Positions 8,968 through 18,910 are shown, numbered from the stretch's first letter. The stretch: 64,000 bases of DNA from Halobacteriovorax sp. JY17 (GCF_002753895.1 NZ_NJER01000001.1:1302910-1366909); one strand, 5' to 3'. Notes: generated by a model not told the origin, from the letters alone. Numbers and translations are program-made.

Positions 8968-11439
8968 ATGACAAAGAAACCAGAACTCCTCCTCCCTGTT
9001 GGCAATATTGAGATGTGCCAGGCCGCTATTCACAATGGCGCAAATGCCATTTATGTGGGTATGCCAGAATTTAATGCTAGAGGAAGAACCACTGATCATA
9101 GCTTCGAGCAATTAGAAGAAATTATAAAACTCTGCCACACATATGATGTAAAAGTTCACGTGGCATTTAATATCGTTATATTTGAACAAGAAATTCCTAG
9201 AGCAATGGAGCTTCTAAGAAAGCTTCTTCCTCTTTCGCCAGATGCGATCATTGTACAAGACCTAGGCCTAGTAAAACTCATAAAAGAGATGGCGCCATGG
9301 CAAATAATTCACGCCTCAACTCAAATGACAGTGACCAATGAACTCGCCATTGAAATGACAAAAGACTTAGACATCGAAAGATATGTCCTTGGAAGAGAGA
9401 ATAGTCTAAGTGAAATTAAAAAAATCAAAGAAAATACAGATAAAGAATTAGAAGTCTTCGTCCATGGAGCTCTCTGTGTTGCCTACTCAGGACAATGCTT
9501 TACAAGTGAGAGCATAGGTGGACGAAGTGCTAACCGCGGGCAATGTGCTCAGAGCTGCCGCTTTGAGTATGATCTCATTGTAGATGATAAGAAGGTTGAT
9601 CTCATCGATCAGAAGTATCTTGTTTCTCCACAAGACCTCTGTGGAATTGATGAAGTCGATCAACTCAGAGAGATTGGCGTCGACTCCTTAAAAGTAGAAG
9701 GAAGACTCAAAAGCCCTCTCTTTGTTGCGAGCGTAGCAAATTCTTATAGAGCGGCGATTGATCATCAAGCTCCGACTAAAGATCTTAAAGAAGAAATGGC
9801 AATTACCTACTCTAGAGGATTCTTCCCAGGCTGGCTCCACGGAGTCAATCACCAAGACTTAGTTGACGGAACTTTTGGAAGTAATCGTGGACTGAAAATT
9901 GGTCAAGTTCAAGAAGTCAGAAAGAACTCAGTAATTATTGCTTCTGATAGAAATTTAGAAAAGGGAGATGGTCTTCTCTTTGCGAGCGTATCAGAACCAA
10001 AGAAGAAAGAAACTGGGGGAATGATTTACGATATTAGAACTCTTAAAAACAGACGCTTTGAAATCTATTTTCAAAAAGACTTTAAAGTGAGTGCTATCAA
10101 AGAAGGCTATAATATCTATCAAACTTCTTCTCCAAAGATTACAAAAGATCTAAGTAAGTCTTTTACTGATAAGCACTCCTTACTCAGAAGACCTATCAAA
10201 GTAAACTTAGAAGCTCACTGTGGACAGCCGTTAAAACTAACGGCCTCAATAAGTGAAAAAGTGATAACTATTACTGATGAATTAATTCTTGAGCCATCAA
10301 AGAATGACGTTAATATTGATTCAATAAAAAAGGAAATTAGCGCTCTAAGTGCTACTCCTTTTATCTGTGAATCACCAAAGGTCGAATTATCAGAAGTACC
10401 ACCTTTTATTCCAAATAAGACTTTAAAGAAGCTTAGACAAAGAGCTATTTCTCAACTCTTAGAAGAGCTAACAACTGCTCCAGTGAGAGACTTAAATGAA
10501 GTAACTCTTCCCTCTTCAAAAGAGAGACTTCAAGAGAGAGATTCCAAGATAAGGCTCCTACTAAGAGAAATTTCTCAGTTAGAAGAGGTTCTTCCTCTAA
10601 TAAGTTCAAATCAAGTAATAAAAGAGCGTTTAGATTTCATTATTCTAGATTATGAATTTGGAAGAGATTACCAAACATCTCTAGACCTCTTAAGAGAGTA
10701 TGGAATAAAGTCCGCAATAGCGACCAATAGGATTCTAAAACCTGGTGAATATCATCATTTAAAGCTACTACTTAGAATTAAACCTGACGTTATTCTAGTG
10801 AGAAACCTAGGAGCTCTTCAGTTTATTAAAGAGCATGATCCCGAGCAAGAAGTGATCGGAGACTTTAGTTTAAATATTGCAAACTCCGTCACCGCATCTT
10901 ACCTATTTAAGAAGGGACTAAGTTCTCTTACTCCTAGTTACGACTTAAATAGAGATCAACTTTTGGCCTTAATAGAACACTCTGAGAATAAGAACTTTGA
11001 AATAACAGTTCATCAGTATATGCCAAGCTTTCATATGGAACACTGTGTGTACGCAGCTTTTCTTTCAAATGGAAAATCGTTTAAAGACTGCGGGAAGCCT
11101 TGTGAAAAACACAAAGTCGAACTACATGATAGTTTTGGAAATAAGCACTTCATCAAGGCAGATTCCGAGTGCAGAAATACCATGTACAATGCCACTTCCA
11201 TCTCTGCGCCTACTCTTTTAAAAGAATGTGAGGCCATTGGAGTGAGCCTCTTTAGAATTGAAGCTCTCCATGAAGATGCGAAAACTATTTACAATAAGCT
11301 CTTGGCCTTTACGAATCTATTATCTAATCAAATAGAACCAGCAGAGCTCAATAAAGAATTAGGTCTCCATGAAAACTACGGACTCTCATCGGGACAAATC
11401 TTCAAAGAAGATTCCTACATTGACAGGAAGAAGTTCTAG
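8968..11439 (+). CDS. U32-family protein, RlhA-like (23S rRNA C2501 hydroxylation type)
   Basis: The 823-residue protein opens with the U32 signature (ELLLPVGN, then GANAIYVG). The block around residues 170-197 contains four cysteines (170, 177, 193, 197) in the GGRSANRGQCAQSC pattern typical of RlhA/YdcP. A second U32-like half has another four cysteines (693, 708, 712, 735). U32 relatives UbiU and UbiV bind a 4Fe-4S cluster through four such cysteines; RlhA hydroxylates C2501 of 23S rRNA. It is about 170 residues longer than E. coli RlhA. The open frame extends to 8854, but homology starts at MTKKPELLL, so I use the ATG at 8968. Its stop overlaps the convergent next gene. Confidence 0.82.
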   Translation: MTKKPELLLPVGNIEMCQAAIHNGANAIYVGMPEFNARGRTTDHSFEQLEEIIKLCHTYDVKVHVAFNIVIFEQEIPRAMELLRKLLPLSPDAIIVQDLGLVKLIKEMAPWQIIHASTQMTVTNELAIEMTKDLDIERYVLGRENSLSEIKKIKENTDKELEVFVHGALCVAYSGQCFTSESIGGRSANRGQCAQSCRFEYDLIVDDKKVDLIDQKYLVSPQDLCGIDEVDQLREIGVDSLKVEGRLKSPLFVASVANSYRAAIDHQAPTKDLKEEMAITYSRGFFPGWLHGVNHQDLVDGTFGSNRGLKIGQVQEVRKNSVIIASDRNLEKGDGLLFASVSEPKKKETGGMIYDIRTLKNRRFEIYFQKDFKVSAIKEGYNIYQTSSPKITKDLSKSFTDKHSLLRRPIKVNLEAHCGQPLKLTASISEKVITITDELILEPSKNDVNIDSIKKEISALSATPFICESPKVELSEVPPFIPNKTLKKLRQRAISQLLEELTTAPVRDLNEVTLPSSKERLQERDSKIRLLLREISQLEEVLPLISSNQVIKERLDFIILDYEFGRDYQTSLDLLREYGIKSAIATNRILKPGEYHHLKLLLRIKPDVILVRNLGALQFIKEHDPEQEVIGDFSLNIANSVTASYLFKKGLSSLTPSYDLNRDQLLALIEHSENKNFEITVHQYMPSFHMEHCVYAAFLSNGKSFKDCGKPCEKHKVELHDSFGNKHFIKADSECRNTMYNATSISAPTLLKECEAIGVSLFRIEALHEDAKTIYNKLLAFTNLLSNQIEPAELNKELGLHENYGLSSGQIFKEDSYIDRKKF

Positions 11440-13373
11440 GCTTCTTCCAACTTCTCTTTCTTTACTTCTACAGGAAGAGTTAAATTCACTCTTGAATCTA
11501 ATACCTCAATAAATCCAGCATCTGCATTTATCTCATAGTAATTCTCTCTTTCACGAACAAAGAAATCTACAAAACTATCTGCTGCTGCAGAAAGACTAAT
11601 AAGAATAGCCTCGCCTTTATTAAGCTTAAAAAACATTGGAGGAAGAGTTAGAGAATACTCCCCTTCACTATTATCTTCGAAGTAAATTGAAGTTCGACTA
11701 ATTCCATAAGTCATTGAATGAGGAACTTCCCACTCACCATTTTCAGTATTAAAGAGAGAAACAATAACAGCTGTTTTCTTTAGAGAGGATTTTGCTGTAA
11801 ATTTTAATTTCAAAGTTCCATTGACGACTAAATCCTCTTCAAGCACCCCTCCAAATTGAAGAGACTTACCTTCAGCAATATCTAGCCTATTATTTAAAAT
11901 AGCAGGACGGGCTTCAGTCCCCAGAGTTAGAGTTAACTCTCTAAAATCTCCTTCAACATTATTTGATCCAGTTGGAATTTCTGAATGGTCACGGTACTCA
12001 CTCTTTAAATCTTTCATTTTTCCTTGCAAGAAATTAAATGCAAATTCTTTCTCAAAGAATCCACCACAACCGTGCCCCTGATGATGTAAGTATAGGAAGT
12101 GATTCTTTGGATTTATCGAATCATTTCTTAGAGCTTCAAAGGCCAAGACAGTATCTCTCCCATCTTGATCGTTATCTGTTCCAGCAATATGAAAGATTGG
12201 AATATGTGACTCTTTAAGCTCCTCTAGAATAGACCTTTCTTTAAAGTACTCGCTAAGTTCTCCATTCTCTCTTGCATTAGTTAAATCTGTCCAATCTGCA
12301 ATATCTCTACCATAGAGAAGATTGTCATAGTCTTCAAAAGGAGTATTCTTAGAAAAGAGATATGAGAATTTCTCATCGTAGAGAGAAAGTTGATCTGGAT
12401 TTTCTCTCTCAGCAATATAGTCTAATAATCTCGACTCTACAGTCTTTCCTGCAGTAAAAGAGTCCGTTTCAGCGTTAGAGGGAGCACTGCAAGCAACTGC
12501 AGAAATAAGCCCTCTTGCATTACTCGCTGCTGCAGCAAGTGCATTATAGCCATCATAGGATACACCGTAGGATATAACGGCCCCATTAGAAAATTTCTGC
12601 TTAGTGATCCACTCAATTGTCTCTTTTGAGTCTTCAATATTCTTTTCGTGAAGCCATTTAAAGTTACCTGTCGAAGCATGAGAGCCTCTATTTGATTGGA
12701 TGACTACATTCATATTCATTTTCATCAAACTATTTACAGAATTAATATAGTAACCAAAACTACTTGTATGAAGATATGGAGTCTTTATAAAGAAAGTTCC
12801 TCTCTTTACATTAGGATTACTGAAAGTAATTGAAGAAATTTCTTCACCATCACTCATTCTTACTAATTCGTGAGTAATGTTTAAACCTACTGCAGAAAGA
12901 AAGTAGTAAGACTGAATAAGCTTTTCTTTATCTACTCTAAAGAAGGCATAGAGTGAATTATCACCAGCTAAATTTAATTTAATAATGCTGATTGGATAGT
13001 GGTCCATAATAATTTCAGAAGAATAGCAGTGATTTGATAATTGTGTAATCTGATTTGTATAACTCTTAAAATCATTGAACTTAATATTCTTTGAAAAGTA
13101 TTTTTCAAACTCAAAGGGATTATCAAGCTGTTTCTTATTAATTAAGAGGCATAGATTATCGGATAGATTTAGCGATTTCTCACCACTTGAAATTTTCTTT
13201 GTATTTAAACTAAATTGCTCACCAGAAGATAAAGTAGAGCTCTGTTTTAGCTGTTGTTGATTTAAGAACTCAATCTCAGATACGACTTTTGTATACTCAT
13301 AACTCTTTTCTTTCTTAGAGCAAGAATAGAAACTCGCAAGAATAAATAGAAGAAGAAAGCTTGTTTTTCTCAT
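11436..13373 (-). CDS. S15/CocE-like alpha/beta-hydrolase lipoprotein
   Basis: The 645-residue protein has a lipobox (SFYSC) and an alpha/beta-hydrolase core. The nucleophile motif is GVSYDG with Ser272. The acid is probably in AGTDNDQDGRD, and the His in HQGHGCGGFF. The C-terminal 180 residues look like the jelly-roll domain of the PepX/CocE family. These enzymes are X-Pro dipeptidyl-peptidases, acyl esterases or acylases; which one applies cannot be told. The chosen start at 13373 has AAAGGTG seven bases upstream. The longer frame to 13427 lacks one. The lipoprotein signal places it in the periplasm or outer membrane. Confidence 0.8.
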   Translation of the reverse strand: MRKTSFLLLFILASFYSCSKKEKSYEYTKVVSEIEFLNQQQLKQSSTLSSGEQFSLNTKKISSGEKSLNLSDNLCLLINKKQLDNPFEFEKYFSKNIKFNDFKSYTNQITQLSNHCYSSEIIMDHYPISIIKLNLAGDNSLYAFFRVDKEKLIQSYYFLSAVGLNITHELVRMSDGEEISSITFSNPNVKRGTFFIKTPYLHTSSFGYYINSVNSLMKMNMNVVIQSNRGSHASTGNFKWLHEKNIEDSKETIEWITKQKFSNGAVISYGVSYDGYNALAAAASNARGLISAVACSAPSNAETDSFTAGKTVESRLLDYIAERENPDQLSLYDEKFSYLFSKNTPFEDYDNLLYGRDIADWTDLTNARENGELSEYFKERSILEELKESHIPIFHIAGTDNDQDGRDTVLAFEALRNDSINPKNHFLYLHHQGHGCGGFFEKEFAFNFLQGKMKDLKSEYRDHSEIPTGSNNVEGDFRELTLTLGTEARPAILNNRLDIAEGKSLQFGGVLEEDLVVNGTLKLKFTAKSSLKKTAVIVSLFNTENGEWEVPHSMTYGISRTSIYFEDNSEGEYSLTLPPMFFKLNKGEAILISLSAAADSFVDFFVRERENYYEINADAGFIEVLDSRVNLTLPVEVKKEKLEEA

Positions 13374-13702
13374 GTCGACACCTTTATTGTAAGTACTTCC
13401 CATTAATAAGAGCAAAATACATACCAAAGATAAACTCCTGAAAATAAGTAAACTACTGAAATTAAGTGTCTAAAAAGCTGACATGTGACTACTCTTCTAA
13501 ATATCTGACAACCTTTCAGGTCTCTCACAAGAATACAAGAGTTTAGAAAAGTTAGATCAAATATAGACAATGCCCTCTTCTAAATCTTTACTTTCTTAAC
13601 CTATCTCTAATTATGGAGAACCAGCTTTAAAAGCTTAATAGGTCTTGATAAACGCAAAATTAATCCCTCTCTCCCCTAGGAAATGGCCTCAATATCTAAG
13701 AG
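13374..13702. other. Divergent intergenic region of about 330 bases
   Basis: This gap separates the minus-strand S15-like lipoprotein gene from the plus-strand small secreted gene. It has no open frame worth calling and no RNA gene I can recognise. The only structure I found is the pair of direct repeats listed separately. No promoter close to consensus stands out in either direction. Confidence 0.6.
13438..13467. repeat. Two 12-base direct repeats upstream of the S15-like gene
   Basis: CTGAAAATAAGT (13438-13449) and CTGAAATTAAGT (13456-13467) match at 11 of 12 positions, with an 18-base period. They lie about 65 bases upstream of the start of the lipoprotein gene on the minus strand, where a tandem-site regulator could bind. 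Function is inferred from position only. Confidence 0.4.
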
Positions 13703-13972
13703 ATGAAAGTCCTAACACTATTACTTATTCTCTCTCTAGATATTCGCGCTGAATCCGCTTCTGCGCGGGCCACGATGCAAGTCAACACCCTTGCCGAAAT
13801 TCAAATAAGTATAAAGAAGAAGAGAGAGCTCACTATTGACTCTAGTGGGATAAGAGTTGCTCCGAACCAAATGATTCTCATTCATTCTACAAATGGAACA
13901 ATGACAAGAAGTTCAGGAAAGAAGGGTATTTTAAAAACTCCACAGAATAAGAAAATTGAAATATTTTTCTAG
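13703..13972 (+). CDS. Small secreted protein resembling the N-terminal segment of the DUF4402 pilin
   Basis: The 89-residue protein has a short signal peptide (cleavage probably after IRA, residue 16). The mature N terminus (SARATMQVNTLAEIQIS) has the same alternating pattern as the mature N terminus of the DUF4402 major subunit at 17787 (TAQALAVVTAAINIS). After that the protein is basic and lacks the rest of the subunit fold. It could be a shortened fibre component, a degraded subunit gene or an unrelated secreted peptide. It converges on the minor subunit gene and overlaps its end by 4 bases. The similarity was judged by eye only. Confidence 0.5.
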   Translation: MKVLTLLLILSLDIRAESASARATMQVNTLAEIQISIKKKRELTIDSSGIRVAPNQMILIHSTNGTMTRSSGKKGILKTPQNKKIEIFF

Positions 13973-14376
13973 TAAATTACATCCACTGTAAAAGTTCCGA
14001 AATAATTCCCTGGAGGCTGAGTTACATTTATACTTGTAAGAGTTGCTCCAATACCAATAGTTTGCCTACCTTTCTTATCGAGCAATCCATTTGCCCCCGC
14101 AGCTGGCACAGACTTAAAGTTATTGATAATAATAGGGTTAGATCCTGATCCATTTAGACTAATTGACATTTGAGTAGGAAGTAAGATTGAGTAAGAGGTA
14201 TTCTTGTCTCCAGTAACATCAAATACAGCACTATTCGGATTATTAGAGTTTGGAGGAATTATTTTAGAAGAATCTCCCTGGACAAGAATTCCAAACTCCA
14301 GGTCTTGAACTTGAGTAACTTTGATTGGTTTTGAATAACTACTAATAGAAATAAGCAAAAGTATCAATACCTTCAT
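13969..14376 (-). CDS. Minor DUF4402 fibre subunit, possible tip
   Basis: The 135-residue secreted protein is a DUF4402-type subunit. It shares VQDLEFG, VQGD, the PAAGANGLLD block and the final TFTVDVIY with the major subunit at 17787. After a signal peptide of about 15 residues the mature protein begins almost at VTQVQDLEFG. It thus lacks the extra N-terminal strand seen in the major subunit. In chaperone-usher systems, subunits without this donor strand sit at the fibre tip; this is inference. Its ATG overlaps the usher stop (ATGA), so it is the last gene of the operon. A GAAGGGGTG ribosome-binding site precedes it. Confidence 0.75.
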   Translation of the reverse strand: MKVLILLLISISSYSKPIKVTQVQDLEFGILVQGDSSKIIPPNSNNPNSAVFDVTGDKNTSYSILLPTQMSISLNGSGSNPIIINNFKSVPAAGANGLLDKKGRQTIGIGATLTSINVTQPPGNYFGTFTVDVIY

Positions 14377-16886
14377 ATCTTCACCCCTTCAAAGAAAATA
14401 CTATCGCCCTCTTTAGGCATCGTAAATTCTTTCTTATAATCTCGTCCGACACATTTTTCACACTTAATCTTTAAAGTATATTTCCCAGGGATAATCCCTT
14501 GAATATAGAAATAACCATCTCTTTCAATTTGAAACTCTTTATAAATTTTACCATCTAATAGAATCTCTCCCTTTAATCTCTCTTTTGAATTTGTCTTCTT
14601 AGAAAACTCAATCTCTCCTTCAACGTCTCCTTCAATCCTCAGAGGAAATTCAAGAAGCGCAGTCTTCCCAGCTCTTCCCCAAACTCTCTTTCCAGAGGTA
14701 CTTGATTTCAAGTAAATATTTTCAATATTTTGAAGACTAATTTTTATATCCGTTGGAACAAGGGGTTGAACAAAAGAAAAGAAGGCATGTCCAAACTTAT
14801 TTGTCACTTGTCTTTCATTTCCAGAGAGTCGGTAAAATTCAACATTAGGAATAACTCCCTCATCAGCACTTCTTTTCCCATCACCATTCTTATCAAAGAA
14901 GGCCAAGCTTTTAATATTGGCGTACTCACTAGTTCTCTTGTTATAGAGATTAATTCCACTCTCTTTGTCAAAGACGAGTCCATAGGTTAGATTTAGACCT
15001 ACTCCATAACTCTTCTTATTCGTCGCTTCAAGAGTGACTCCTGCGTAGAGTTTTTCAAACCTCTTGTCGGCCCTAAGATTTAAAGAAGTTGTTCTCGTAT
15101 CAAATTCATAGATCAAGTTTGAGCTATAGCTATGCTTCTTTCTATTTGAAAATGAATAACCAAATTCACTATCTCTTAGGCCTTCTTTATTCATTCTATT
15201 TTTTAACTTCAAAGTCGAATGCCCCCATGTATAACGAGAAAATAATTCATTAAAGACAACATCGTTTTCAACGCTAAGGCTATTTGAAATATAGAAATTC
15301 ATAATAGAAAATGAGAGTCTATTTAAGAGATCTAAGTACTTTGGAGTCACACCATATTTCTTCTTATAATTAAAACTCGTATACATTTGTAAATTTGAAA
15401 TAAATTTTAAAGGGAGTAGAAAGTATCCCTTCCATGAATAGTCGATAGGATTCTCTTGCCCTAGAGTGTCTGACTTCACTCCTGTGTTATTAATATAGGA
15501 TAGATTGGTATTAACACCTAGAAAGTTAAATTTAGCAGACGCTTCAAAAGCACGTTCCTTACCATCAGTTATATAATTTGTATCAAGAAGAGTGCTATCA
15601 AGAAAAGTACTTAGAGACCCTCCGTAGTAATCCGTTGACTCAAGGGTTCTTTCATCAAAATTTCGTGTTGTATTTAAATCTAATTGCACTCTTTGAAAGA
15701 GATTCTTTGAAAGAGAGAAGGTATAATTATCCTCTTTAGAGCTATCCTTACCCATCGCTCCCGTGACTATAATCTTTCCATCATTTTTGAAATTATCTCT
15801 TATATTTAAATTTCTATTTTCGTATCTTCTCTCCCCCTTAGGTCCGTAGAAAATAAATTGAAAGCGGTTAAGACCGTAGTATAAATCGACCCCAATAAAT
15901 TCATACCTCTGCTTTAAAGAGCTACCGCTTTGCCTCCCAATAAGAATATCATTGTGATAGAGTTCTACTTCCCACCCACTCTCAAGAGGGCCAGAAAAGT
16001 CTTCTTTTGAAAAATTCTTGGATCGAAGAAGAGATCTATTTGAAAAATAGCCTCCAGTAATTTGCTTTCCTCCACCAACGAGATTTACCGTAGGCGCATT
16101 AAAGTGAATAAGCTTTATTTCACTTAGCCCTACATCTCCAAAGATTCGACTTCTATAATCATTCCTCTCAAGACTTAACCAAAAAGACTCCTGCCTCTTT
16201 CCAATCCCTCTGTAGTCAGTATAAAGCTCTGATTTTAAAACCTCAGCAGAGAGGGAGGTCTCGTGACGTAGAGATGTTCTAGTGTGCCCATCTCTAGACT
16301 TACTTGACTCAAGCGATACTGATTGATCAAAATTGAATCCATCTATCCATTCTCTCTTATTTCTCTCTACTGGATAAGATACGATCTCACCTCTTTTGGA
16401 AGATTTCTTAGAAGCCCTCTCATCTCTAGCTTCTGGAGGAAATAGAGAGTGATATTCTAAAACAATAGAAGAATTAAGAGAGTTTATTTTAAATTTAATA
16501 GGAGTAATTTCTTCAAGAGTCGCCACATCGACAAGCACAAAATCTTCAAGAGCAATAAAGCTTGTGCAATCAATTTTCTTAACTTTATCCAAAAGATTCA
16601 TTTCACATTGATCTAAATCTATTTGATAACCATTTTTCTCATCAAAGAGAAACCCCTCTATCACTCTTTGATTCTTGGCAAATTTATATTCTATACCAAT
16701 TGAATCAAAGAGATCTTCTAGGGGAAGATACCACTTATTATTCTTTTTATAAGTGAGAAGTCCTTCGTTTAAAATAAAATTCTTCTTTGATTTAATCAGC
16801 ATAATTCTCTCATAATTATACCAATCCCCTTGAGCGAAAGTGCTCATAGAAGAAAGCATAAATAGAAGGTAAAGAGATTTTATCAA
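14373..16886 (-). CDS. Outer-membrane usher of a chaperone-usher fibre
   Basis: The 837-residue protein has a signal peptide (cleavage near TFA, residue 18), an N-terminal periplasmic region, and a long beta-rich middle. Segments such as SRIFGDVGLS, a GWEVELYHND strand and YYGLNRFQFIFYGPKG resemble the barrel-plus-plug of CS1/TcfC-type ushers. Near residue 665 a FFDKNGDGKRSADEG loop looks like a calcium-binding repeat within an Ig-like or carboxypeptidase-regulatory-like domain, followed by a C-terminal beta domain. Length matches ushers (about 830). It starts with TTG overlapping the chaperone stop (TTGA). The usher call is strongly supported by the gene neighbours. Confidence 0.82.
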   Translation of the reverse strand: MIKSLYLLFMLSSMSTFAQGDWYNYERIMLIKSKKNFILNEGLLTYKKNNKWYLPLEDLFDSIGIEYKFAKNQRVIEGFLFDEKNGYQIDLDQCEMNLLDKVKKIDCTSFIALEDFVLVDVATLEEITPIKFKINSLNSSIVLEYHSLFPPEARDERASKKSSKRGEIVSYPVERNKREWIDGFNFDQSVSLESSKSRDGHTRTSLRHETSLSAEVLKSELYTDYRGIGKRQESFWLSLERNDYRSRIFGDVGLSEIKLIHFNAPTVNLVGGGKQITGGYFSNRSLLRSKNFSKEDFSGPLESGWEVELYHNDILIGRQSGSSLKQRYEFIGVDLYYGLNRFQFIFYGPKGERRYENRNLNIRDNFKNDGKIIVTGAMGKDSSKEDNYTFSLSKNLFQRVQLDLNTTRNFDERTLESTDYYGGSLSTFLDSTLLDTNYITDGKERAFEASAKFNFLGVNTNLSYINNTGVKSDTLGQENPIDYSWKGYFLLPLKFISNLQMYTSFNYKKKYGVTPKYLDLLNRLSFSIMNFYISNSLSVENDVVFNELFSRYTWGHSTLKLKNRMNKEGLRDSEFGYSFSNRKKHSYSSNLIYEFDTRTTSLNLRADKRFEKLYAGVTLEATNKKSYGVGLNLTYGLVFDKESGINLYNKRTSEYANIKSLAFFDKNGDGKRSADEGVIPNVEFYRLSGNERQVTNKFGHAFFSFVQPLVPTDIKISLQNIENIYLKSSTSGKRVWGRAGKTALLEFPLRIEGDVEGEIEFSKKTNSKERLKGEILLDGKIYKEFQIERDGYFYIQGIIPGKYTLKIKCEKCVGRDYKKEFTMPKEGDSIFFEGVKI

Positions 16887-17662
16887 AACTTAAACTGATC
16901 CTTTGCCGAAGGAGTTTTTGCAAATTCATTTTCAAAGAAGCGAATTTCATAATTCCCTCTCTTCTTTTTGAAGTCTTCAATTTTAAAAGTGAATCTTCTC
17001 TCTGGAATATAAGAGCTCACGCCATTTACAACTGAGATAAACTCTTCTTTTCCTCCATCAAGGCGAAAGATTTTAAACGTCCCAAAAGGAAAAATAGATT
17101 CATCTTTTTTCATAATGACATGAAAGAAGCTTCCTTCTTTATTGGAAGAGATTGCGAATTGTTCTAAGCTAATTTTCCCACTGCTATTTCCATGCGAATA
17201 AATAATAGGGACATTAATTGCGACTCTAGCATCTATCTTCATCATAACCAGATTATCTCTTCCGCCACTCTTCTCTTCTTCTTTCTTTATTGGCTCAAAT
17301 CGAATATGAGCGCGGTAATCTCCAGGAGAGAGCTTAGAAGTTTTTCTCACCATAAAGCGAACCACCTGTTCTTCATTTGGTGCGAGAGTAACTCGTCTTG
17401 GAGAGAAGCGAAGAAATTTAATAATAGAATGTGAGCCCACTCCAGGGTCATCAATTCTCTTCATCTGACCATCAAAAGACTGCTTGTAGAAAACAGCGCT
17501 CAACTTATAAGTTGTTTTAAACGTTCCCTTATTTCTAATCGTCACAGTTGAAACTTTTGATCTCGTCGATAATTTAATCTTTGTTGGAAAGACCTGTAGA
17601 TTTGCATAAGTACTTGCCGCAAGTAAAAGGACACTTACAGCAAAGAGTATTCTTAACTTCAT
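16883..17662 (-). CDS. Periplasmic fimbrial chaperone (PapD-like)
   Basis: The 259-residue secreted protein has a signal peptide (cleavage after YA, about residue 20) and then an Ig-like domain. FPTKIKLSTRSKVSTVTIRN is followed by FSPRRVTLAPNEEQVVRF around residues 82-99, the G1-strand-preceding segment typical of PapD-superfamily chaperones. It should bind pilus subunits by donating a strand and deliver them to the usher encoded next. Start at 17662 is chosen because GGAGAA lies six bases upstream; the ATG at 17674 has no such site. A terminator-like hairpin lies between the pilin gene and this one. Confidence 0.85.
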   Translation of the reverse strand: MKLRILFAVSVLLLAASTYANLQVFPTKIKLSTRSKVSTVTIRNKGTFKTTYKLSAVFYKQSFDGQMKRIDDPGVGSHSIIKFLRFSPRRVTLAPNEEQVVRFMVRKTSKLSPGDYRAHIRFEPIKKEEEKSGGRDNLVMMKIDARVAINVPIIYSHGNSSGKISLEQFAISSNKEGSFFHVIMKKDESIFPFGTFKIFRLDGGKEEFISVVNGVSSYIPERRFTFKIEDFKKKRGNYEIRFFENEFAKTPSAKDQFKF

Positions 17663-17730
17663 TAACTTCTCCATTTTTTCAAGTAGTTAAAGACATTATC
17701 TCTAAAAATATTGATGAATGTAAGGTGGAA

Positions 17731-17759
17731 ATAAAAAGCCCCTCCGTGAAGAAGGGGCC
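17731..17759 (-). terminator. Rho-independent terminator between pilin and chaperone genes
   Basis: On the minus strand GCCCCT and AGGGGC arms (17753-17758 and 17738-17743 on the plus strand as AGGGGC and GCCCCT) form a GC-rich hairpin followed by TTTTTATTT. It lies 28 bases after the pilin stop. Partial read-through would give much more pilin than chaperone and usher mRNA. Confidence 0.75.
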
Positions 17760-17786
17760 ATGAAATTATCTAACTATTTGTAATTT

Positions 17787-18281
17787 CTAGTAAACAACGT
17801 CTACAGTAAAGTTAGCTGCGTAACTCCCTGCAGTCTGAGTCCCCGAAAGGGCCGCTCTTGTCGCACCAACTTTCAAAGTTTGCGCACCAGTACCGTCAAG
17901 TAATCCGTTTGCTCCAGCTGCTGGAGTAGAGGCAAAAGAGTTTACTGCAATCTGCTCATCAGCAGTTGCACCACCACCAGTAATCATAGTTACAGTAGCG
18001 TCGGCCGGTAGAGTAATTGTATAGGCAGTACTCGCCTGCCCTGTAACAGCAAACTCTGCTGCAGTTGCATCACCTGGAGCTACAGTAGAAGCAGCATCAC
18101 CCTGAACTGAAGATCCAAAATCTAGATCTGCAACTTGTGAAATATTGATTGCTGCTGTAACGACAGCAAGGGCCTGAGCTGTGTCAGAAGCAGCTTTTGC
18201 TAAATCTACTGACATAAGTCCCGCTGTTGATAATCCTAAAAGACACATTGTTGTTGATACTTTCTTAAAAGTCTTCTTCAT
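17787..18281 (-). CDS. Major DUF4402 fibre subunit (pilin)
   Basis: The 164-residue secreted protein has a signal peptide ending near LAKA and an Ala/Thr-rich mature part. After an N-terminal strand-like extension (TAQALAVVTAAINIS) come VADLDFGSSVQGD, FAVTGQASTAYTITLPAD, the PAAGANGLLD block and a terminal NFTVDVVY. These match DUF4402, a pilin-like beta-sandwich family. The extension should act as the donor strand for the next subunit. It is first in the operon and is followed by a terminator, consistent with high expression. The AGGGGGA ribosome-binding site fits the second of two adjacent ATGs better, so I start at 18281; 18284 is the alternative. Confidence 0.82.
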   Translation of the reverse strand: MKKTFKKVSTTMCLLGLSTAGLMSVDLAKAASDTAQALAVVTAAINISQVADLDFGSSVQGDAASTVAPGDATAAEFAVTGQASTAYTITLPADATVTMITGGGATADEQIAVNSFASTPAAGANGLLDGTGAQTLKVGATRAALSGTQTAGSYAANFTVDVVY

Positions 18282-18300
18282 CATTCCCCCTAATTAGAAT

Positions 18301-18454: not shown

Positions 18455-18910
18455 TTAGACCGAGCTTTTAATAGGATTCTTTGAGCAGACATAGAGAGTC
18501 AATTGTTTCATCGTAGTCTTATTATATGGCTTATTGATATAGAGAATTTTATCTGTGGGGCCAAAGATTTCTAAATAATCTTCCCAGGAATATTGCTGGA
18601 AAGCTGTACAGACAATAAACTCAGTTTGTGGATACTCTTCTCGAATATGCTTAATGGTTTGAATTCCATCAATGCCAGGAGGCATGCGAATATCCATAAT
18701 CACTAACGAATACGGATCTTTATTGCGGTAAGCTTCTCTTACTTTTAAAACTCCTACCTCACCTTGGAAACAATGCTCTAGTGAGAATTGCATTCCAAAA
18801 TTCTTAGCATTCATTTTTTCAATAATTTTCTTATACAGCTCATGCATCTCTTCCGAGTCATCAACCATTAATATTTTGTGCTCCATTATTTCATTGTCTC
18901 TCATAAACAA
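18455..18910 (-). CDS. Response regulator receiver-domain protein
   Basis: The 151-residue protein is a receiver domain with MVDDSEE, the phosphoacceptor Asp73 in VIMDIRMPPG, and the conserved Lys in YINKPY. The usual switch Ser/Thr is in VCTAF. No output domain follows. It resembles the receivers found at the N terminus of cyclic-di-GMP or histidine-kinase proteins but is free-standing. The start is a TTG with AAGGA seven bases upstream; downstream ATGs at 18904 and 18886 are alternatives. It lies just upstream of the pilin operon on the same strand, with about 170 bases between, so a role in pilin control is possible but unproven. Confidence 0.8.
   Translation of the reverse strand: MFMRDNEIMEHKILMVDDSEEMHELYKKIIEKMNAKNFGMQFSLEHCFQGEVGVLKVREAYRNKDPYSLVIMDIRMPPGIDGIQTIKHIREEYPQTEFIVCTAFQQYSWEDYLEIFGPTDKILYINKPYNKTTMKQLTLYVCSKNPIKSSV

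Follow-up and report, generated by a model that had tools for sequence, protein, structure and literature searches.

The DNA analyzed here is a window of 64,000 nucleotides from Halobacteriovorax sp. JY17, and it holds a compact locus that very probably encodes a non-classical chaperone-usher fiber, built from subunits of the DUF4402 family and assembled as in the scheme proposed below. By fold and by residues, the system belongs to the chaperone-usher superfamily. Read along the minus strand, the genes run from the major subunit (SUB1) through the chaperone and the usher to a second subunit (SUB2), with 4-bp overlaps between the chaperone and usher genes and between the usher and SUB2 genes. 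An earlier note, made from the sequence of the window, had proposed such a fiber with these four genes; all four open reading frames were found where it had placed them (Table 1), and the fiber of DUF4402 pilins is borne out by fold and profile-profile comparison. It had also suggested a survey of gene order in Bdellovibrionota. The same order recurs in relatives, so the gene set is not a product of chance, and the DUF4402, chaperone and usher genes are adjacent in nearly all loci from Bdellovibrionota, Alpha- and Gammaproteobacteria, Desulfobulbus and Ignavibacteria.

Fold and profile evidence for usher, chaperone and pilins

The names usher and chaperone required structural and profile evidence, because curated Pfam cut-offs missed both proteins. 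An AlphaFold2 (AF2) model of the usher, built from eight sequences, has a predicted local distance difference test score (pLDDT) of 79.5. When it was compared with the PDB by Foldseek, ranks 1-18 were all FimD/PapC chains (best E-value 1.7e-27, 10-12% identity), followed by streptococcal proteases starting at 5.9e-9. The model supports a FimD/PapC-like domain arrangement, with an N-terminal domain, a β-barrel with plug and two C-terminal β-domains. As a lone template FimD was too weak to align (1%), so mainly profile-profile comparisons were used. In hhalign, the profile of 28 DUF4402-linked ushers aligned with that of 12 PF00577 ushers from the same phylum at 99.8% (E-value 1.6e-28, 551 columns) and with K-12 ushers at 95.2%, whereas the negative control, the unrelated enzyme MetG, gave 0.1%.

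The usher is also tied to DUF4402 by occurrence. Among 291 genomes of the phylum, DUF4402 was found in 25, a strong usher in 24 and both in 23 (Fisher p ~1e-30), leaving two and one genomes as exceptions; DUF4402 and PF00577 ushers are independent across the same genomes (p 0.6). An ordinary outer-membrane barrel in an accidental neighborhood would agree with the lack of a usher family match in sequence searches, but FimD/PapC chains score far ahead of every other barrel, by many orders of magnitude, and the protein is linked to and co-occurs with DUF4402. The fold ranking and this linkage refute the ordinary-barrel reading in practice, and we regard it as extremely improbable.

The chaperone profile aligns at 97.9% with archaic chaperones and at 96.1% with the K-12 FimC group. 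According to Pakharukova et al. (PMC4654587), one proline is invariant across the whole chaperone superfamily, Arg89 of CsuC marks the archaic and alternative kinds, and classical chaperones are characterized by two basic residues. In our reading of the sequence alignments, the invariant proline (P99, domain 1) occurs in 30 of 32 chaperones and the Arg89 equivalent (R121, strand F of domain 1) in 29 of 32; hhalign likewise pairs R121 with the archaic arginine. The site equivalent to R8 is basic in all 32, and the site equivalent to K112 is proline in 31, so that the classical R8 and K112 carboxylate anchor is not present. These aligned residues mark the chaperone as non-classical.

Both subunits score well above the Pfam cut-off of 25.2 for DUF4402 (SUB1, E-value 2.3e-13, 51 bits; SUB2, 2.9e-17, 64 bits), as the earlier note had read them, and no other DUF4402 gene was found in the genome (3.47 Mb). 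The shared PAAGANGLLD block and FTVDV ending that it had pointed out are literal in both, the C-termini being FTVDVVY and FTVDVIY. An AF2 model of SUB1 made with 42 sequences has a pLDDT of 88.6. Nearly all of its 50 top Foldseek matches are chaperone-usher subunits (Csu, FimI, FimA, Caf1, CfaB, PapA, FimG and DraD), with Csu (7zl4) the best match and template modeling (TM) scores up to 0.57. Because the match list is so uniform, though each match is weak alone, the model supports a pilin fold for DUF4402. The C-terminal strand of SUB1 is mostly unpaired in the model, as expected beside an open groove; this comes from DSSP assignment rather than from a direct measure of coordinates.

Several results weigh against the identification. 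The usher matched none of the Pfam and NCBIfam usher models, and the chaperone reached PapD_N only at an E-value of 0.03 (14.8 bits, cut-off 23), so by the refuting condition that the earlier note had set for these two proteins its proposal came close to failing. Taken singly, the Foldseek matches of SUB1 have weak E-values (best 6e-3), and DUF4402 is tied to other pilins faintly by sequence profiles, at 63% for archaic subunits. Against the K-12 pilin profile, the C-terminal strand alone aligned (2.6%). Neither single proteins nor profiles retrieved a usher, chaperone or pilin in searches of PDB sequences, and eight usher relatives matched SdrD_B, carboxypeptidase-regulatory and similar β-domains in profile searches, and no usher model. 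Some relatives attain a PapD_N E-value of 1.2e-5. A curated-profile match is a proxy for superfamily membership, not its definition.

Table 1. Positions of the features in the window
Feature	Position	Strand	Description
CheY-like single-domain response regulator	18455-18910	minus	just upstream of SUB1
SUB1, major DUF4402 pilin	17787-18284	minus	165 aa; Pfam DUF4402; signal peptide, predicted donor strand at the N-terminus, Ig-like domain predicted to be incomplete, C-terminal strand FTVDVVY
Putative SUB1 donor strand, ASDTAQALAVVTAAINIS	18135-18188	minus	not in SUB2
Terminator-like hairpin	17737-17759	minus	in the gap between SUB1 and chaperone genes; 9-bp stem and T run
Periplasmic chaperone, non-classical, PapD fold	16883-17674	minus	263 aa; hhalign, signature residues
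Outer-membrane usher	14373-16886	minus	837 aa, TTG start; AF2/Foldseek, hhalign
SUB2, DUF4402 pilin without donor strand, proposed tip cap	13969-14376	minus	135 aa; Pfam DUF4402
Mini-subunit candidate	13703-13972	plus	secreted, ~73 aa mature; convergent with SUB2
Secreted S15-type peptidase (X-Pro dipeptidyl-peptidase family)	11436-13427		adjoins the mini-subunit candidate

Donor strands, the proposed tip and assembly

The two subunits differ at their N-termini. From the mature N-terminus to a conserved phenylalanine there are 24 residues in SUB1 and 12 in SUB2, whose mature chain begins at the first strand of the domain. Subunits fall into two classes by this distance, 22-37 residues with a donor strand and 6-18 without, the lengths being counted from signal cleavage sites predicted by a simple rule; one short value (L032:1395) evidently comes from a mis-called site. 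The N-terminal donor strand of a polymerizing subunit is thus found in the SUB1 class, the strand exchange itself being predicted. About 20 loci across phyla hold exactly one subunit without donor strand. One locus, L016, speaks against the scheme, as both of its subunits have the strand and none is of the short class.

Since the N-terminal donor strand is missing, SUB2 is most likely a tip cap. A subunit with only a groove would accept a strand from the next subunit and could not donate one, which would make it the first in the chain under the donor-strand scheme. DraD/AfaD also lacks a donor strand and is hence confined to the tip (PMC3112383). SUB2 could instead be a base anchor, a terminator or a free secreted protein: its position is read from sequence, and DraD/AfaD itself is placed at the tip without its binding to the major subunit being directly proven (PMC3112383). 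This we consider improbable, as a groove without a donor strand could only accept from the next subunit, and in many loci the SUB2-type gene takes the place right behind the usher gene, which in the archaic loci sampled is occupied by a tip-like gene of ~305 aa. As the tip cap, SUB2, the minor DUF4402 subunit of the earlier note, would be more than a second copy; the note was right that a second DUF4402 gene is present. No separate two-domain adhesin gene was found, as the note had also said, and the fiber probably lacks a large adhesin while having a dedicated first subunit. Two subunits elsewhere (L017:673-1524 and L106:8314-9222) consist of two fused DUF4402 domains, of which the first lacks the donor strand and the linker stands where a donor strand would be; they are possible natural tip fusions.

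The gap between the SUB1 and chaperone genes contains hairpins of differing sequence in five relatives (L013, L014, L015, L102 and L103) as well as in the window. Because they occupy the same gap, SUB1 is probably kept in excess over the assembly genes by the hairpin. A hairpin also follows the major subunit gene of pap, and that of the window resembles it.

In the scheme we propose, the chaperone would capture DUF4402 subunits in the periplasm, filling the open groove and anchoring the C-terminus, and the usher would dock the chaperone-subunit complexes and thread the fiber out through the outer membrane. SUB2, a pilin domain without donor strand, would go in first and cap the tip. SUB1, in excess owing to the hairpin behind its gene, would then polymerize, each copy filling the groove of the preceding subunit with the strand at its own N-terminus. 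The fiber may serve in adhesion.

The CheY-like gene next to SUB1 (Table 1), also present in L013 and L014, is a possible candidate for a regulator of the operon. L015 has a histidine-kinase-like gene in its place.

The convergent gene and candidate half-size subunits

The system of four genes described in the earlier note is there, and a fifth gene, on the opposite strand, had been missed. Each of the five complete loci in the family to which the window belongs (the window, L013, L014, L015 and L102) has it, always convergent with SUB2 and overlapping it by 4 bp at the stop codons. In L015 and L102 it stays beside the operon despite different other neighbors. Its codon pattern is coding-like, with third positions differing most. 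An antisense artifact was rejected, as five genomes retain the gene and all but 4 bp of it is intergenic.

The mature protein starts with ESASARATMQVNTLAEIQI (ASSSARATLLVTEQVKIT in L014), which is similar to the donor strand of SUB1, ASDTAQALAVVTAAINIS (z 4.3 against shuffled sequences, the cleavage sites in this and the following z-test being picked by eye). It ends in IEIFF, like a pilin, and its middle is unrecognizable. A parallel is seen in the archaic pilus loci of Bdellovibrionota, those with a PF00577 usher. There, 23 of 30 sampled loci (L127, L128, L131-L133, L135-L139, L141-L143, L145-L151 and L153-L155) have a mini-subunit of 74-128 aa encoded next to either the gene for the major subunit or that for the chaperone, usually between those two. 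These mini-subunits align to major subunits over signal peptide and donor strand only (hhalign 96.5%, E-value 8e-10), and the strand is like that of the cognate major subunit (z 29.8).

By analogy, the fifth gene may encode a half-size subunit that ends fiber growth: able to give a strand and unable to take one, such a subunit would terminate the fiber, as minor subunits such as FimI of type 1 pili and PapH do (PMC12122975). An unrelated product, either a secreted protein or a regulator, is nearly as plausible. The gene is transcribed from the opposite strand, its product has no Pfam match, its five copies share 20-42% identity and its profile is tied only weakly to that of DUF4402 (hhalign probability 7%). 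What tips the balance towards a mini-subunit is that similarity is confined to the donor strand, which also holds for the archaic mini-subunits, and that both the linkage to the operon, even where other neighbors differ, and the stop overlap are kept in 5/5 loci.

A further shortened subunit is possibly encoded on the Polaromonas plasmid pE5SP1 (L161:1823-2227), where a 'hypothetical protein' without DUF4402 label lies between two DUF4402 genes and has a donor-strand-like start and a pilin-like end. The S15-type peptidase gene adjoining the fifth gene (Table 1) has a similar-sized gene at its place in L013 and L014.

Distribution and relation to known systems

The earlier note took the locus for a reduced system of a predator-type bacterium, possibly for surface or prey attachment. 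Its distribution does not support a predator's reduced device for attaching to prey, a role that is speculative. The cassette also occurs in Betaproteobacteria, its carriers include Vibrio, Pseudoalteromonas, Sphingopyxis, Polaromonas, Desulfobulbus and Ignavibacteria, many of them not known predators, and the operon is absent from two of the five genomes sampled in the genus of the window. In one of these (G002) the region is rearranged and a clean empty site was not seen. In Polaromonas, Sphingopyxis and Pseudoalteromonas the cassette is found on plasmids, where RefSeq labels most subunits 'DUF4402' and gives the ushers names such as 'carboxypeptidase regulatory-like domain-containing protein'. 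The literature searched contains no mention of DUF4402 or PF14352. A tentative and rather doubtful extension is that the cassette forms a further chaperone-usher branch beside the classical, alternative and archaic ones, overlooked through this usher label, and that in Bdellovibrionota both it and the archaic branch use half-size mini-subunits, each little more than a cognate donor strand with a stub, to plug the last groove and so stop and anchor the fiber. With the locus read as a chaperone-usher fiber, DUF4402, a family of unknown function, gains a function, and a usher lineage missed by current annotation emerges in several major bacterial groups and on plasmids. With a cap without donor strand, a polymerizing subunit and a proposed half-size subunit, the start, growth and stop of donor-strand assembly become testable.

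Among the classes compared, the system is closest to the archaic one (Csu of Acinetobacter, CupE of Pseudomonas), and by sequence, subunit family and tip it is a distinct branch. That it is simply a divergent form within the known archaic (sigma) class is a real possibility, though not the one we favor. The best profile matches are archaic-type PF00577 ushers and chaperones, the usher profile aligning over the barrel and C-terminal domains; the pilin fold is nearest Csu, the chaperone carries the Arg89 signature, and the order of major subunit, chaperone, usher and tip is the same. In favor of a separate branch, BLAST at 1e-3 linked 755 of 756 ordered pairs within DUF4402 ushers and 132 of 132 within archaic ushers, but 19 of 672 between the two. 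Archaic pili have SCPU-type subunits and a two-domain tip adhesin, whereas here both subunits are DUF4402, SUB2 is a single domain without donor strand and the usher lies below all Pfam models. The chaperones also differ, by the near-invariant proline at the K112-equivalent site beside the basic R8-equivalent residue, and both kinds of system coexist in G001, G004, G013, G096 and G103. Many relatives have an archaic pilus locus, though the window's own genome gave no PF00577 usher match, so that the DUF4402 system is the sole chaperone-usher system found there by these searches.

For the alternative class (Ecp/CFA), the usher reached 17% against EcpC alone, a single sequence and thus a weak template, and the TcfC family was not found in 13 carrier genomes. 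With classical pili (type 1 Fim and P pili), the system shares the FimD/PapC usher fold, similarity in chaperone profile and the donor-strand principle; it differs in that BLAST links none of its ushers to the K-12 classical ones, in lacking K112, and in having neither a lectin-type tip nor a terminator of FimI/PapH size. The proposed fiber-ending role of the mini-subunit is that of FimI and PapH (PMC12122975), which are full-size pilins, whereas the mini-subunit is about half their size. SUB2, for its part, resembles DraD/AfaD, the tip of the Afa/Dr polyadhesin, in being a single pilin domain with a predicted groove and no N-terminal donor strand (PMC3112383); DraD is of a different family, whereas in the DUF4402 system cap and rod subunits share one family.

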